A DNA stretch of 64,000 nt from a virus, in IMG/VR virus record IMGVR_UViG_3300042090_002000, positions 1-64,000 of that record. The stretch is one strand, 5' to 3'. Each line of letters opens with the position of its first letter. Within the stretch, counting starts at the first letter, position 1. This document shows positions 21,795 to 44,393 of this stretch, piece by piece. The notes beneath the pieces are model-generated. The model ran no database searches, was not told where the DNA came from, and saw nothing but the letters and a program-made list of their open reading frames with translations. Made by a program: the position numbers and the translations under genes.

Positions 21795-21801
21795 AAAGGC
21801 T

Positions 21802-21830
21802 TGACACCTTTTCGTGGATGTAGTAGGATC
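21802..21830 (+). promoter_or_regulatory. Sigma70 promoter of the tmRNA gene
   Basis: TTGACA (21802-21807), 17-base spacer, TAGGAT (21825-21830). Near consensus and correctly placed to start transcription at about 21837. Confidence 0.8.
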
Positions 21831-22125
21831 GCGGTGTCGGACCTACTCACGGGGATGCCACCGCCATCAGGACGTGCATAACGACCGGATGGCAAGCGTA
21901 CCGTTAACTGCGACTTGAAGGTGTCTCCCTGAGTAGGCCTGACTGGTGGAGGTGAAATGGTTCCACTGGGATGTTCGTCGGTCACTGAACCAAGCCATGC
22001 ATGCATGAAACTCATCCGGTCTGCTGCCGAACATCCCAGTGGGGCCGTTTCGCTCCGAAAGTTACGCTCGTAGAAAGGTCATGACTGCCTAAGTGGAAGG
22101 GAGTTCAACTCTCCCCCGATCCACC

Positions 22126-22187
22126 CGATGAGTGATGCGCCATGGGTTTCGTGAAACCCGCCATCTGTTTGTGATCACTCATTCGGT
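22126..22187 (+). other. Intervening spacer of the permuted tmRNA precursor
   Basis: 62 bases between the two mature pieces. GATGAGTGAT (22127-22136) pairs with ATCACTCATT (22174-22183), and an inner hairpin GGGTTTC-GT-GAAACCC sits at 22144-22159. The spacer would be removed by tRNA-type processing at the ends of the acceptor stem. Confidence 0.75.
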
Positions 22188-22276
22188 GGGTCGGACGGGT
22201 TTCGACACATAGGTCGAGAAGTGACGCTAGTTCGAGTCGAAGTGAACGCGACGTAATCGCGTATCAAACGATAGAC

Positions 22277-22360
22277 GCCAAAACTAAAATGGCTAAGGTC
22301 CTTGCGTTCCCAGCAATGCGAACTGTGGCTCCGGCCCGACAGTTTGCGCTGGCTGCGTAA
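22277..22360 (+). other. tmRNA tag reading frame, 27 codons
   Basis: The resume codon is GCC at 22277, preceded by ATAGAC, similar to the TAGTC before the resume codon of E. coli tmRNA. The tag begins AKTKMAK and ends ARQFALAA before TAA (22358-22360). The ALAA end is the classic degradation signal. Most bacterial tags have 8-20 residues, so 27 is long. Confidence 0.8.
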
Positions 22361-22366
22361 GAGCCG

Positions 22367-22406
22367 CCCGGGAGTGGCCGAAAGCTGCTCCCGGGATTTT
22401 AATTTT
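22367..22406 (+). terminator. Rho-independent terminator of the tmRNA
   Basis: CCCGGGAG (22367-22374) pairs with CTCCCGGG (22388-22395), followed by ATTTTAATTTT. Confidence 0.75.
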
Positions 22407-22907
22407 ATGACAAAAAGTCTTGCAAAACAGAAAGAGTACCGCGACCGGCGAACTGCTGCCGGAATTTGCGTTGCTTGTGGTGGGTTATTATCAAGGAAGA
22501 CCGTGATTTGTGCATCGTGTCAAGAAACACGCAATACGTATCGTCGTACTCGTCGAGCAGATCGCAAGAAAAAAGGGTTGTGTCCAGAATGTGGTGAGGT
22601 TGCTCCTAATGGGCGCACATACTGTTTGGATTGTGTTTTTCTGCATAGACTGGATTTATTAAAATTATCGCCTGAAGAGACGGAGCGAGCCGTTAAGGCA
22701 TGGAATTCATTTCAGGGCGCATGCGAGTGTTGTGGGACTACTCAACCGCCAAAGCGGGGCTGGTTTATGGATCACGATCACAAAGCGAAAAAATTTCGAG
22801 GGATTATATGTCAATTTTGTAATACAGGATTAGGGTATTTTTTCGACGATGTGACCAAACTTCACGCCGCAATCGAATATATAAAAAGGAGTCAAAATCG
22901 TGCCTAG
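22407..22907 (+). CDS. HNH endonuclease, endonuclease VII type
   Basis: 166 residues. The ATG at 22407 comes right after the tmRNA terminator; longer in-frame starts would lie inside the tmRNA. Two N-terminal Cys-rich fingers (CVACGG...CASC and CPECGE...CLDC) precede the nuclease core CECCGTTQ...WFMDHDHKAKKFRGIICQFCNTGLG. Its insertion just behind the tmRNA suits a mobile endonuclease that avoids disrupting the gene. Confidence 0.82.
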   Translation: MTKSLAKQKEYRDRRTAAGICVACGGLLSRKTVICASCQETRNTYRRTRRADRKKKGLCPECGEVAPNGRTYCLDCVFLHRLDLLKLSPEETERAVKAWNSFQGACECCGTTQPPKRGWFMDHDHKAKKFRGIICQFCNTGLGYFFDDVTKLHAAIEYIKRSQNRA

Positions 22908-23133
22908 TCATCGTTTCGAGGGCTTTACGCCGGTTACTGATAGCACGCACATGGATGGGTACAAGTATGATCCGGTGGGAAAAAAACTCACGGTGCGATT
23001 CAAGAACGGTTACGTTTACGAGGCCAGCGGCGTGTCGTCGGAGACGCATCAAGCATTCGTGTCTGCGCCATCACAGGGCACGCACTGGCATTGGGTCATC
23101 AAGGATAATCACAACATCACACGGGTAAAGTAG
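22900..23133 (+). CDS. KTSC domain protein
   Basis: 77 residues from a GTG with AAGGAG 8 bases upstream. The central part (YDPVGKKLTVRFKNGYVYEASGV...VSAPSQGTHWHWVI) follows the KTSC domain pattern seen in small phage and bacterial proteins of unknown role. It overlaps the end of the HNH gene by 8 bases. Confidence 0.65.
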   Translation: MPSHRFEGFTPVTDSTHMDGYKYDPVGKKLTVRFKNGYVYEASGVSSETHQAFVSAPSQGTHWHWVIKDNHNITRVK

Positions 23134-25194: not shown

Positions 25195-25752
25195 TCAAGC
25201 AAAAACTAGACTGTTCATCGCGTCTTGCGCAAGCACATTATCATTCTCGCGAAGATATACGAAAGCCGACGCAGCGGATTTGTGTGCCAGAAACTCAGTG
25301 ACTGCGCCGATGCGTTGTGTTGCGTCGAAGATGGCCATCGCGGCGCTGTGGCGGAACATGTGCGAGTGCGCGAAGCTGGTGTGGATTCCCGCAAGCACGC
25401 ATGCCTTCTCAATCATCGCGTTGAAGTAGTCGCGCGACAGGCCGTCGAAGAGTCGCGAGGTACGCTTGATCTGAGCCATGGTGATCATTGGCGTCATATC
25501 GAATGCCGGGTCGTCGCAGATATGGAGCGCCCGCACGACTTTCTTGCCGCGCTTTGCCGCCGGAACCAAGATCACCCACTTACCGTCGATCTGACAAACA
25601 TCTTCGCCGCAGAGAGACAACATTTGCGAGACGCGGGTCCCCGTAAAAAACATCGTCAACATGGCCATGTGGTGCAGGCGGCTTTTGAGTGTGTCTGCAT
25701 CGTACGCGGCCCGGAAGACTTTCGCAAGATCACTGATCGGCAGATATTCCAT
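25195..25752 (-). CDS. Tyrosine recombinase (integrase), catalytic domain only
   Basis: 185 residues, about half the usual integrase length. The active-site set is visible: R40 (GTRVSQML), a Lys around 67-71, H131-x-x-R134 (SHMFRH), H157 and nucleophile Y166 (FVYLRE). The arm-binding and core-binding N-terminal domains are missing. It could integrate the genome or resolve multimers like a minimal Xer enzyme. It is the first gene of a minus-strand operon with a GTAC-operator promoter just upstream. No att site was identified. Confidence 0.8.
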   Translation of the reverse strand: MEYLPISDLAKVFRAAYDADTLKSRLHHMAMLTMFFTGTRVSQMLSLCGEDVCQIDGKWVILVPAAKRGKKVVRALHICDDPAFDMTPMITMAQIKRTSRLFDGLSRDYFNAMIEKACVLAGIHTSFAHSHMFRHSAAMAIFDATQRIGAVTEFLAHKSAASAFVYLRENDNVLAQDAMNSLVFA

Positions 25753-31971: not shown

Positions 31972-32148
31972 TTACCCCGTAGCGGATACCGCTTGCTGTG
32001 TCAATATTGCTCTGGCCCCGGCCATAATCAATTCCAGCATATGCCGTGTTAGGTACCCCGTTAGATTAGATGTGTGCTCCGCGATTGGCACGGAAGGGTC
32101 CGCACCGCACGCGCAACACACTAGGTTAATTGTGATTCTCAGCTTCAA
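31972..32148 (-). CDS. 58-residue Cys-containing small protein
   Basis: Frame from a TTG inside the end of the pentapeptide-repeat gene: MKLRITINLVCCACGADPSV, then a helical end. It overlaps the upstream gene by 23 bases. The TTG start is inferred. Confidence 0.4.
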   Translation of the reverse strand: MKLRITINLVCCACGADPSVPIAEHTSNLTGYLTRHMLELIMAGARAILTQQAVSATG

Positions 32149-32929
32149 TCCGCGTAAGATAAAAATGAATTCCACCTGCGCATTCTTGCCAGCGATCATT
32201 ACACCATTTATCACAGGTGACCGTCTGTCCTTTGGTATAGGTTACGGATGAGTCATGTTGAGATATTCCTATGGTAGCGCCGAATACCTCTACAACGCGA
32301 ACCGATTGGGCGCGGCATTTTCGGCTGGTTGCGTTAGAGCGGGGAGTTTTTGCGGAGATTAACAATTTGACAATAACATTGTTTCGGCATTTTTTCCACC
32401 CAATGATTACCCCTTCGGGCAAAATGTTAGATTGTGCATCAGCAAGAGCGGAAATATTTTTCGCGCCGTACAGGTTCGCGCGGTTCAGGTTCGCGTCGCT
32501 CAGGTCCGCGCGGCTCAGGTTCGCGCCGATCAGGTCCGCGCCGTACAGGTTCGCGCGGTTCAGGTTCGCGTCGCTCAGGTCCGCGCGGCTCAGGTTCGCG
32601 CCGATCAGGTCCGCGCGGCTCAGGTTCGCGCCGATCAGGTCCGCGTCGCTCAGGTCCGCGCGGCTCAGGTTCGCGCCGATCAGGTCCGCGCGGCTCAGGT
32701 TCGCGCCGATCAGGTCCGCGCCGATCAGGTTCGCGCCGTTCAGGTTCGCGTCGCTCAGGTCCGCGTCGCTCAGGTCCGCGCCGATCAGGTTCGCGCCGAT
32801 CAGGTTCGCGCCGTTCAGGTTCGCGCCGTTCAGGTTCGCGCTAGATTTGATTGCTTCTATCAATAGATCTTTAATTGTGGTAACTGCCGCTGAAAAAACA
32901 ATGGTTCCATAAACATTTTGTAAATCCAT
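32126..32929 (-). CDS. Pentapeptide-repeat protein with conserved C-terminal domain
   Basis: 267 residues from the ATG behind AGAGGAC. Residues ~30-155 are about 25 pentapeptide units of the A(N/D)L type (ANLIG, ADLSD, ANLNG), a right-handed quadrilateral beta-helix. The C-terminal part (IIGWKKCRNNVIVKLLI...SRKCRAQSVRVVEVFG...VTCDKWCNDRWQECAGGIHFYL) matches a domain that recurs in phage pentapeptide proteins of unknown function. Some pentapeptide proteins mimic DNA; that role is not shown here. Confidence 0.75.
   Translation of the reverse strand: MDLQNVYGTIVFSAAVTTIKDLLIEAIKSSANLNGANLNGANLIGANLIGADLSDADLSDANLNGANLIGADLIGANLSRADLIGANLSRADLSDADLIGANLSRADLIGANLSRADLSDANLNRANLYGADLIGANLSRADLSDANLNRANLYGAKNISALADAQSNILPEGVIIGWKKCRNNVIVKLLISAKTPRSNATSRKCRAQSVRVVEVFGATIGISQHDSSVTYTKGQTVTCDKWCNDRWQECAGGIHFYLTRIEAENHN
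32463..32843 (-). repeat. 15-base tandem repeats coding the pentapeptide array
   Basis: Plus-strand units TCAGGTTCGCGCCGA, TCAGGTCCGCGCGGC and similar repeat about 25 times with few changes. The near-identity at DNA level suggests recent expansion by slippage or unequal recombination. Confidence 0.85.
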
Positions 32930-33000
32930 TTGGTGTCCTCTTTTCTGAAACGCCGTGCGTTTCGGGAAACCCTCATAGACTGAGGGAAACCCGGAAAGCA

Positions 33001-34020
33001 TTACGCTTCCGTTTCTTCACAGTCCGCCGGTATATTCAAGGCTTCCAATTCGGGCGCGATGCGTTCAATTTCCGAATAGGGGATGACATGGCATCCGGCA
33101 TGTAGAGTCCCGTCTGCATCGATTCGATCAATCGGATAGTGGACCAAATGCAGAGTGTGGCCGTTCCGCACATACGGGACTTGCTTCGCCATAACGGCGC
33201 GCACGAATCGCAACCCGCGCGCCGCGTGTTCAATCGGCACCTGTGCGCCGAGCGAAGTTTCGACAACGGATGTTTGCGCCGTTTCTCCATATGCAATGCG
33301 GAGCATTACCGGGAGTCCGCCTAGACAGCTTGAAACGTGCGCGCCGTTTCGCCATTCTTGCGCACATTCCGCCCTGCGTTTCTCACGCGCGATATTTTCC
33401 TGCTTGGTTTGTTCCGCACGTTCGGCGGATTTTTTCGCCTCTCTAGCCTTGACCGCTTCCAATTCTTTGGAGTCCAGAGCGGGCACAACTGGCAAGGCGG
33501 GTAGTGCAAGCCCGAAAAACTGAGCGTATGCGGTCACTTCCGAAACGAGTTTTTCTGCCGTGTCGTGTGCCCATTGTTTGTTCCAAGACGAGCGGGCGCG
33601 CGCCGAAGTGACTATTTCCGTTTCGATACGCTTCAGGTAGTCCGCGATATTTTCATCATGGCGGAATTTCGCTGGCCCGTTGTTAGAAACCATAACATTA
33701 GGGACATGGAAGCGGATAGTAGATTCTGGAATAGCGGAGCGGACCGCCGATTGATGCCCGGAAGTGGTAACGCTGTATGATGCCGTGTTTATCGTGACCG
33801 CAGTCCGGCCCGCTTCGTTTGTGACGTGGTGTGCGATTGGGAAGTGTGAGCCATATGAAAAAATGGTTTCATTTTCGAAGTACAGCGAACGATTCGAATT
33901 GCGCCCGCTCGCCTGTGTCTTGTGGAACCACAGGTGCGGAATTTCGCCAGATGCGAATACTTGCTTTCCGCGCGGGCTTGCTACCGGGGGATTCTCTGAT
34001 CGTCTACGCTTTATGCTCAT
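33001..34020 (-). CDS. 339-residue conserved phage protein, function unknown
   Basis: The N-terminal half (GEIPHLWFHKTQASGRNSNRSLYFENETIFSYG..FPIAHHV...SYSVTTSGHQSAVRSAIP) is a pattern I know from other phage genomes without a known role. The middle is a Lys/Glu/Arg coiled coil, and the C-terminus is a compact alpha/beta part. It has no catalytic motif I can name. Confidence 0.6.
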   Translation of the reverse strand: MSIKRRRSENPPVASPRGKQVFASGEIPHLWFHKTQASGRNSNRSLYFENETIFSYGSHFPIAHHVTNEAGRTAVTINTASYSVTTSGHQSAVRSAIPESTIRFHVPNVMVSNNGPAKFRHDENIADYLKRIETEIVTSARARSSWNKQWAHDTAEKLVSEVTAYAQFFGLALPALPVVPALDSKELEAVKAREAKKSAERAEQTKQENIAREKRRAECAQEWRNGAHVSSCLGGLPVMLRIAYGETAQTSVVETSLGAQVPIEHAARGLRFVRAVMAKQVPYVRNGHTLHLVHYPIDRIDADGTLHAGCHVIPYSEIERIAPELEALNIPADCEETEA

Positions 34021-42794: not shown

Positions 42795-44393
42795 ATGAGC
42801 AAACACACTCAGTACGGCGCGGACGCGCGAGACGCGATCCTGCGTGGCGTGGATTTCCTTGTTGACGCTGTTGCATTGACTGAAGGGCCGCGTGGAAGAA
42901 ATGTCATCATGGGGCAACGCGCGTTGGGTCAAACGCCGAAAGTTTCGCGCGACGGCGTGACCGTTGCGAACTATGTCGATCCGGTTGACCCCACTGAACA
43001 GATGGGCGCTGATCTGATCCGCGAGGCTTGCCAGAAAACCGACAACGTCGTTGGCGACGGCACGACCTGCACGGCTGTTCTTGCCCGCGCTATGATTCAC
43101 GCTGGCTTTGATTTGATCACCAAGGGTGCGAACCCTTTGGCCATGGAGCGCGGCATTCATAAGGCCACGGCGCTTGTGATTGACCGGCTGCGCAAGATGG
43201 CTGTAGAAGTCTCCGGGGACAAAGTCTTTCAAGTTGCCACGGTGTCTGCGCACGGGGACACGGAGATCGGATGGCTTGTCGCGGAGGCTGTTGAGAAAGC
43301 GGGCAAGGATGGAATTGTGACGGCGGAACCATCCGTGACAGCGAAGACGTTTGTTGAGAACGCGCCCGGGCTGGAGTTGGAAAAATCGAATCTGCTTTCG
43401 CCGGTGTTCATCACGCACCCAGAGGAAATGAAAGCGGAGTTGCCGAATTGTCGCATCCTGTTGTGGGAAGGTGTGATCTCGTCTGCCAAGGCGGTTGTGC
43501 CGATCTTGTCGCAAGTCAAGGCCGATAACACCCCGCTGCTGATCATTGCCGGAGGATACGAGGCCGAAGCATTGGCGTGCATCATCAAGAACAAGGCCGC
43601 GTTGGCGCTGCCAGTGAACGCAGTGCGCATGGAAGCCTACGGTGACCGGCGCAAGGAAGTGATGCGCGATATTGCCGCGCTAGTCGGCGGCACCGCGTAC
43701 ACGGAAGACATGGGAATGAAAATCGAAACGGTCGATCTGAAAAAGCTGGGTGTGGCGCGCAAGGTTGTCACCACCATGGCCAAAACGCAGATCATCGACG
43801 GCAAGGGCAGCCAAGTGGAATTGGCCGGGCGCATTGCCCATATCCGTACCGCTATCGAAGCGGCGGCTCCGGCGGAGCAACCCCCGCTGAAAACGCGACT
43901 GGCGGCGCTGCTGGGCGGCATCACGATCATCAAAGTGGGCGGCACGACCGTCACGGAGATGGAAGAGAAGCGCGACCGTGTTGTCGATGCACTATCGGCG
44001 GCGAAGGCTGCGGTTGAGTCTGGCGTGGTCGCGGGCGGTGGCACTGCCATCTTCAATGCGGCATTTGGATTGAGTGAACGTACTCCACCCGTAGCGAGCG
44101 AAGAGGGACCCGGATTTTCTGTTGTGGCCAGCGCAGGGCGCGCGGTGGTCCGGCAGATCGCAGAGAACGCGGGCGTCAACGCGAACGAGATAATCGGTAC
44201 TCTTTTATCAAGTCATGAGGGGCTGGGCTACAATGCGGTGACCGGAGAATTTGAAAATTTGGTTAACGCAGGAATTATCGATCCCGTGAAAGTTGTGATC
44301 GAAGCCCTGAAGAACGCGGCAGCGGTGGCTTGCAGCATCCTCACCATGGGAGCCACGGTGAGCGAAATTAAACAGGAGAAACAAAATGGATAG
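42795..44393 (+). CDS. groL: Chaperonin GroEL (Cpn60)
   Basis: 532 residues, close to the ~548 of bacterial GroEL. It folds proteins in an ATP-driven ring with GroES. Conserved elements include LTEGPRGRNVI-type N-terminus, DGVTVANYVD, the nucleotide loop VGDGTT at residue ~87, apical-domain motifs and the late VVAGGGTA ATP-site glycines. It lacks a Gly-Gly-Met tail. GAGGAGACC precedes the ATG. A phage copy probably serves its own capsid or large virion proteins, which may be too large or too abundant for the host system (inference). Confidence 0.93.
   Translation: MSKHTQYGADARDAILRGVDFLVDAVALTEGPRGRNVIMGQRALGQTPKVSRDGVTVANYVDPVDPTEQMGADLIREACQKTDNVVGDGTTCTAVLARAMIHAGFDLITKGANPLAMERGIHKATALVIDRLRKMAVEVSGDKVFQVATVSAHGDTEIGWLVAEAVEKAGKDGIVTAEPSVTAKTFVENAPGLELEKSNLLSPVFITHPEEMKAELPNCRILLWEGVISSAKAVVPILSQVKADNTPLLIIAGGYEAEALACIIKNKAALALPVNAVRMEAYGDRRKEVMRDIAALVGGTAYTEDMGMKIETVDLKKLGVARKVVTTMAKTQIIDGKGSQVELAGRIAHIRTAIEAAAPAEQPPLKTRLAALLGGITIIKVGGTTVTEMEEKRDRVVDALSAAKAAVESGVVAGGGTAIFNAAFGLSERTPPVASEEGPGFSVVASAGRAVVRQIAENAGVNANEIIGTLLSSHEGLGYNAVTGEFENLVNAGIIDPVKVVIEALKNAAAVACSILTMGATVSEIKQEKQNG

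Follow-up and report, generated by a model that had tools for sequence, protein, structure and literature searches.

The 64-kb stretch of viral DNA analyzed here (hereafter, the window), which comes from a 77,724-base virus record of a soil-type phage, in all likelihood encodes a phage-borne, circularly permuted (two-piece) tmRNA that has its own promoter and terminator and works as a ribosome rescuer and tagger. The Rfam model of permuted tmRNAs (RF04321, tmRNA_permuted) matches positions 22066-22360 over its whole length (model positions 1-213) with a score of 57.1 bits, above the gathering cut-off of 47 bits, and an E value of 1.9e-8 over 64 kb. ARAGORN finds one tmRNA, of the permuted type, with the tag AKTKMAKVLAFPAMRTVAPARQFALAA. 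The match to RF04321 bears out the preliminary description, made from the sequence alone, which had read the locus as a complete two-piece tmRNA. A match to a known tmRNA model, which that description had set as a check, was thus obtained. Within the clan, the best subtype is the beta-proteobacterial beta_tmRNA (RF01850), for which the scores (29.2 bits in the window and 49-70.7 bits in the relatives described below) are all under the cut-off of 84.

Organization of the predicted two-piece tmRNA gene

All elements of the locus are on the plus strand. A sigma-70-like promoter, TTGACA-17-TAGGAT (21801-21829), agrees with the consensus at 10 of 12 positions, and by reading of the sequences, a TTGACA box followed on the 3' side by an AT-rich hexamer occupies the same position in all six leader-sharing contigs. 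Transcription probably starts near 21836. A leader separates the promoter from the acceptor piece (22061-22125, supported by RF04321 and covariation), which comprises a P2 strand, the T-arm (22099-22115) with the T-stem GGGAG/CTCCC, the acceptor strand CCGATCC (22116-22122) and A-C-C up to 22125. It is followed by an intervening sequence, or spacer, of exactly 62 nt (22126-22187), a hairpin that prolongs the acceptor stem, and by the coding piece (22188-22360, matched by RF04321). The latter begins with the acceptor strand GGGTCGG (22188-22194), all seven bases of which pair with CCGATCC, and continues with the GGTTTCGAC region, the P2 strand CGAGT (22233-22237; five of five outer P2 pairs) and the tag frame called by ARAGORN (22277-22360), which consists of 27 codons (22277-22357) with an ALAA end and the stop codon TAA (22358-22360). 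The intrinsic terminator (22367-22404) has a 12-pair stem (22367-22395; folding z -3.8) and a T-rich tail.

The promoter, the structured 62-base spacer, the pairing of the first seven bases of the coding piece with the acceptor strand, the tag frame and the terminator had all been proposed in the preliminary description and are upheld here, and the parts of the acceptor piece lie just where they had been placed. Two features go beyond that description, namely, a stable leader of about 225 nt and the genomic acceptor end, which reads ACC-C, so that the terminal A of CCA must come after processing, by trimming and CCA addition.

The spacer region reaches -41.5 kcal/mol (z -5.3) when its flanks are included in the fold (22114-22197), a value that none of 200 shuffled sequences equals; for the spacer alone (22126-22187), z is only -1.5. 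The spacer hairpins of six relatives are unrelated in sequence to that of the window, yet 67 of the 68 compared pairs form; in the seventh relative, Tunturi_3, the spacer is only a short hairpin. The spacer is expected to be cut out of the precursor.

Related phages and compensatory changes

Relatives were reached via the phage GroEL and the KTSC protein encoded just downstream of the tmRNA. The same permuted tmRNA gene is present in seven related phages, with RF04321 scores of 63 to 81 bits: six metagenomic contigs of 59-99 kb (G007/L014, G011/L015, G006/L016, G004/L017, G013/L052 and G014/L053) and the cultured Tunturi_3, a podovirus of an acidobacterium (PP885686). The Tunturi_3 gene (L022:38172-38396, about 88172-88396 of PP885686, minus strand) scores 63.3 bits, above the RF04321 cut-off, and has a 29-codon tag; the GenBank record PP885686 carries no tmRNA feature, and a tmRNA goes unmentioned in the Tunturi_3 paper (PMC11924767). 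The terminase, portal and capsid proteins of Tunturi_3 are 24-27% identical to those of the window, so that it is a distant relative of the window phage. The standard tmRNA model RF00023 gives only sub-threshold matches in the relatives, which overlap the permuted gene or tRNAs. No match to the tmRNA locus was obtained in a nucleotide search of 50,697 phage records, and terminase and endonuclease VII queries yielded few or zero relatives. Altogether, the gene is present in 8 of 11 large related records; the other three (G008, G015 and G016; 59-100 kb) contain no RF04321 match above the cut-off, and either the gene is dispensable or these records are incomplete.

To compare the RNA structures, we aligned the eight phage sequences after removing the spacer and fusing the acceptor piece to the coding piece (alignment A3); one N was added to the T-loop of L015 and to that of L016, both six bases long, so that the stem stayed in register. 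The 17 pairs of the acceptor stem, T-stem and outer P2 are standard in 136 of 136 cells. Both sides have changed in 28 cells, compared to a mean of 8.7 after shuffling, and the number drops to 0 or 1 when the partner strand is slid by 1-3 columns; because the eight sequences are related, the counts from shuffling cannot be read as probabilities, but a trivial cause is ruled out by the slid controls. The acceptor stem retains seven of seven pairs in all eight phages, with compensatory changes at three positions, and such changes affect five of five pairs in the T-stem and three of five in the outer P2. RNAalifold applied to A3 adds a long P2, with compensated change in 24 of 38 pairs. The G3-U70 pair, an AlaRS identity pair expected for alanylation (PMC3985003), is invariant in all eight phages. 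The tmRNA at L015:1501-1797 has an irregular T-loop (UGCAAA compared to the usual UUCRANU) and an intact T-stem.

Taken together, the Rfam E value of 1.9e-8 and the compensatory changes in seven relatives exclude chance, and this comparative evidence identifies the window gene as a genuine two-piece tmRNA kept by selection. Comparison of the relatives thus supports both the acceptor pairing and, through conservation of the long frame, the tag that had been predicted from the window sequence. The same observations bear on the possibility that the locus is a remnant of integration, with the phage having once inserted at a host ssrA gene and kept the captured piece. Integration commonly targets tmRNA genes (PMC11915505), and a protein with a tyrosine-recombinase domain is encoded about 3 kb away (25195-25752). 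However, capture of an attachment site would be expected to leave a 3' fragment, whereas the locus is a complete transcription unit in which compensatory change has preserved both pieces across eight divergent phages, and we regard this origin as extremely improbable.

The tag and the proposed function

The tags of the eight phages are 27, 24, 27, 25, 27, 27, 26 and 29 codons long, all with an AA-stop end and a net positive charge, and the tags of the seven contigs, the window included, have in common an LA-K/Q-V-x-x-F core. Among the four 27-codon tags, the numbers of differences at the first, second and third codon positions are 52, 40 and 94, respectively; this excess at the third position fits a translated tag frame.

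SmpB was sought in nine phage records and none was found; therefore, the two-piece tmRNA very probably works with the SmpB of the host. We infer transcription, processing, charging, tagging and a benefit to the phage along the following lines. The precursor would be cleaved on either side of the 62-nt spacer hairpin: RNase P is expected to generate the start of the coding piece, and the acceptor end would be matured by RNase Z or by exonucleases and completed through addition of CCA. RNase P and RNase Z are the enzymes that have been proposed to process permuted tmRNA genes (PMC3985003). The two pieces would be held together via the acceptor stem and P2, and the alanyl-charged RNA, along with host SmpB, would enter ribosomes that have stalled on broken messages, a situation expected to arise often in infected cells. 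The 27-residue basic, hydrophobic tag would then be appended to the unfinished protein, and its ALAA end should send the tagged product to host proteases. The likeliest benefit to the phage would be that ribosomes are kept free, or that the fate of truncated proteins is set, during infection.

Alternatively, the RNA might be made and folded but serve mainly as a decoy of the host tmRNA that titrates SmpB or stalled ribosomes. There is a precedent in mycobacteriophage DS6A, whose tag-less tmRNA form is recorded as an inhibitor of the endogenous tmRNA (cited in PMC11915505), and with no SmpB found in the phages, a decoy would draw on that of the host. A pure decoy, however, would need neither a complete tag frame nor conserved ends nor an excess of third-position change, all of which are seen in the eight phages, and this role is very unlikely compared to that of a functional tmRNA.

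The leader of the acceptor RNA

The acceptor RNA has a strongly structured 5' leader (21836-22060, about 225 nt, between the promoter and P2), with a folding z value of -7.3 and none of 200 shuffled sequences as good. Inverted repeats (I1 and I3) delineate two hairpins, at about 21839-21943 and about 21948-22056, and the motif UGGUGGAGG (TGGTGGAGG; 21944-21952) shows complementarity to the acceptor end UCCACC(A) and resembles a Shine-Dalgarno sequence. A leader of 54 to 302 nt lies between the promoter and P2 in seven of the eight phages, with greatly differing sequences; in Tunturi_3, it is absent. TGGTGGAGG is the only 9-mer, with at most one mismatch, that all seven leaders have in common, and none of 300 shuffled leader sets shares any such 9-mer. 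The leader matches no known Rfam family. The beta_tmRNA model likewise starts about 50 positions 5' of P2, and the leader may be a 5' domain of the acceptor RNA.

Modeling of the isolated acceptor RNA gives predicted probabilities of pairing between the motif and UCCACC(A) of 0.02 to 0.99 across the seven phages: two phages have values near 1, three have values of about 0.4-0.65, and the remaining two, one of them the window (0.18), have low ones. Conceivably, the leader could be a built-in regulator of the tmRNA, in which the motif would pair with UCCACC(A) and compete with the coding piece at UCC, so that the acceptor RNA would be held closed until the coding piece joins or would form a tag-less tRNA-like domain of standard order. 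We consider this mechanism quite unlikely; as far as we know, no phage tmRNA with such a switch has been described.

A different explanation, compatible with a functional tmRNA, is that the Shine-Dalgarno-like motif is not a part of the RNA structure but the ribosome-binding site of a short peptide encoded in the leader, with its ATG at 21957 in the window. Indeed, GGAGG or GGAAGG followed by ATG-GTT-CCA is found in four of the seven phages (the window, L015, L016 and L017). Such an ATG is missing from the other three leaders, however, the putative peptides vary in both length and sequence, and it is GGUGGA (GGTGGA in the DNA) that is exact in seven of seven leaders, compared to six of seven for GGAGG, so that translation from this site also seems unlikely.

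An origin of the leader by duplication of the coding piece of the same phage was also considered but is not supported, the alignment scores being no better than those of shuffled sequences (P 0.18-1.0). Four of the seven leaders resemble the 5' consensus of tmRNAs in general (P at most 0.004, in a post hoc test with a consensus that we built ourselves). A scan of viral contigs for the leader pattern found the known relatives alone, and a second such scan returned 13 stretches, with no Rfam match in the ten new ones. In bacterial contigs, the pattern has nine matches, near the number estimated for chance, and none of the eight contigs scanned for tmRNA (L040 being outside this set) contains one.

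Genomic context

The KTSC-domain protein is encoded just downstream of the tmRNA gene in the window (22900-23133) and in the same place in G004, G006, G011, G013 and G014, and further downstream in G007; this neighborhood is conserved in most relatives. Four window genes encode endonuclease VII domains (PF02945; 22407-22907, 36713-37096, 44799-45359 and 63078-63560), the first directly after the tmRNA, and are possibly mobile, homing-type genes. The divergent GroEL of the window (42795-44393) is about 40% identical to the nearest GenBank phage GroELs and 66-73% identical within the clade. On the minus strand, the window encodes a pentapeptide-repeat protein with a DUF5758 C-terminus (32126-33001) and the short (185 aa) tyrosine-recombinase/integrase domain protein mentioned above; Tunturi_3 has one of the latter too. 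Another Tunturi_3 product, a small protein (PP885686 82469-82807), has an RF-1 (peptidyl hydrolase) domain (PF00472, 36 bits) and is possibly a second, protein-based ribosome rescue factor. The contig end of G013 (L052:1-260) consists of a tandem repeat with GGTCGGACCCGCGAA-type units that resembles Acinetobacter phage repeats.

Comparison with known permuted tmRNAs

Phage-borne two-piece tmRNAs are not new: in 2022, ARAGORN identified 53 permuted tmRNAs among 18,146 phage genomes, 50 of the 53 being marine or aquatic (PMC9004378), and the 2025 tmRNA database holds 79 phage tmRNAs (PMC11915505). The present genes have in common with the permuted tmRNAs of RF04321 and RF01850 the order of acceptor piece, spacer, coding piece and tag, as well as the T-arm, the acceptor stem with G3-U70, and P2. 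They differ in the leader, which is outside the known Rfam families, and in the tags of 24-29 codons, which are uncommon, the most common tag length in the database being 10 (PMC11915505). The locus had initially been described as unusual, and this holds for the length of the tag but not for the occurrence of a permuted tmRNA in a phage.

The marine Methylophilales phage Melnitz (PMC9004378) similarly carries a complete permuted tmRNA on the 3' side of a predicted promoter, but its tag has 14 codons (ANDNYVPVDYALAA) and it has a glutamine riboswitch, whereas no riboswitch match was obtained in the present family, which consists of GroEL-encoding phages distantly related to the soil podovirus Tunturi_3. 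In a sequence search, the matches to the Melnitz tmRNA were confined to four Melnitz records. Tunturi_3 resembles the window phage in having a permuted tmRNA with a long tag but lacks the leader and has a shorter spacer hairpin. Thus, the new points are the non-marine clade of GroEL phages, the long tags and the structured leader of 54-302 nt.

With these findings, the known range of phage-encoded two-piece tmRNAs comes to include a non-marine clade. The long, conserved tags of this clade raise the question whether the phages alter the fate of rescued proteins beyond ribosome recycling, and the leader motif is a specific candidate for tmRNA control. With a cultured acidobacterial member, albeit a distantly related one, the function of the tmRNA is directly testable in a plaque system.
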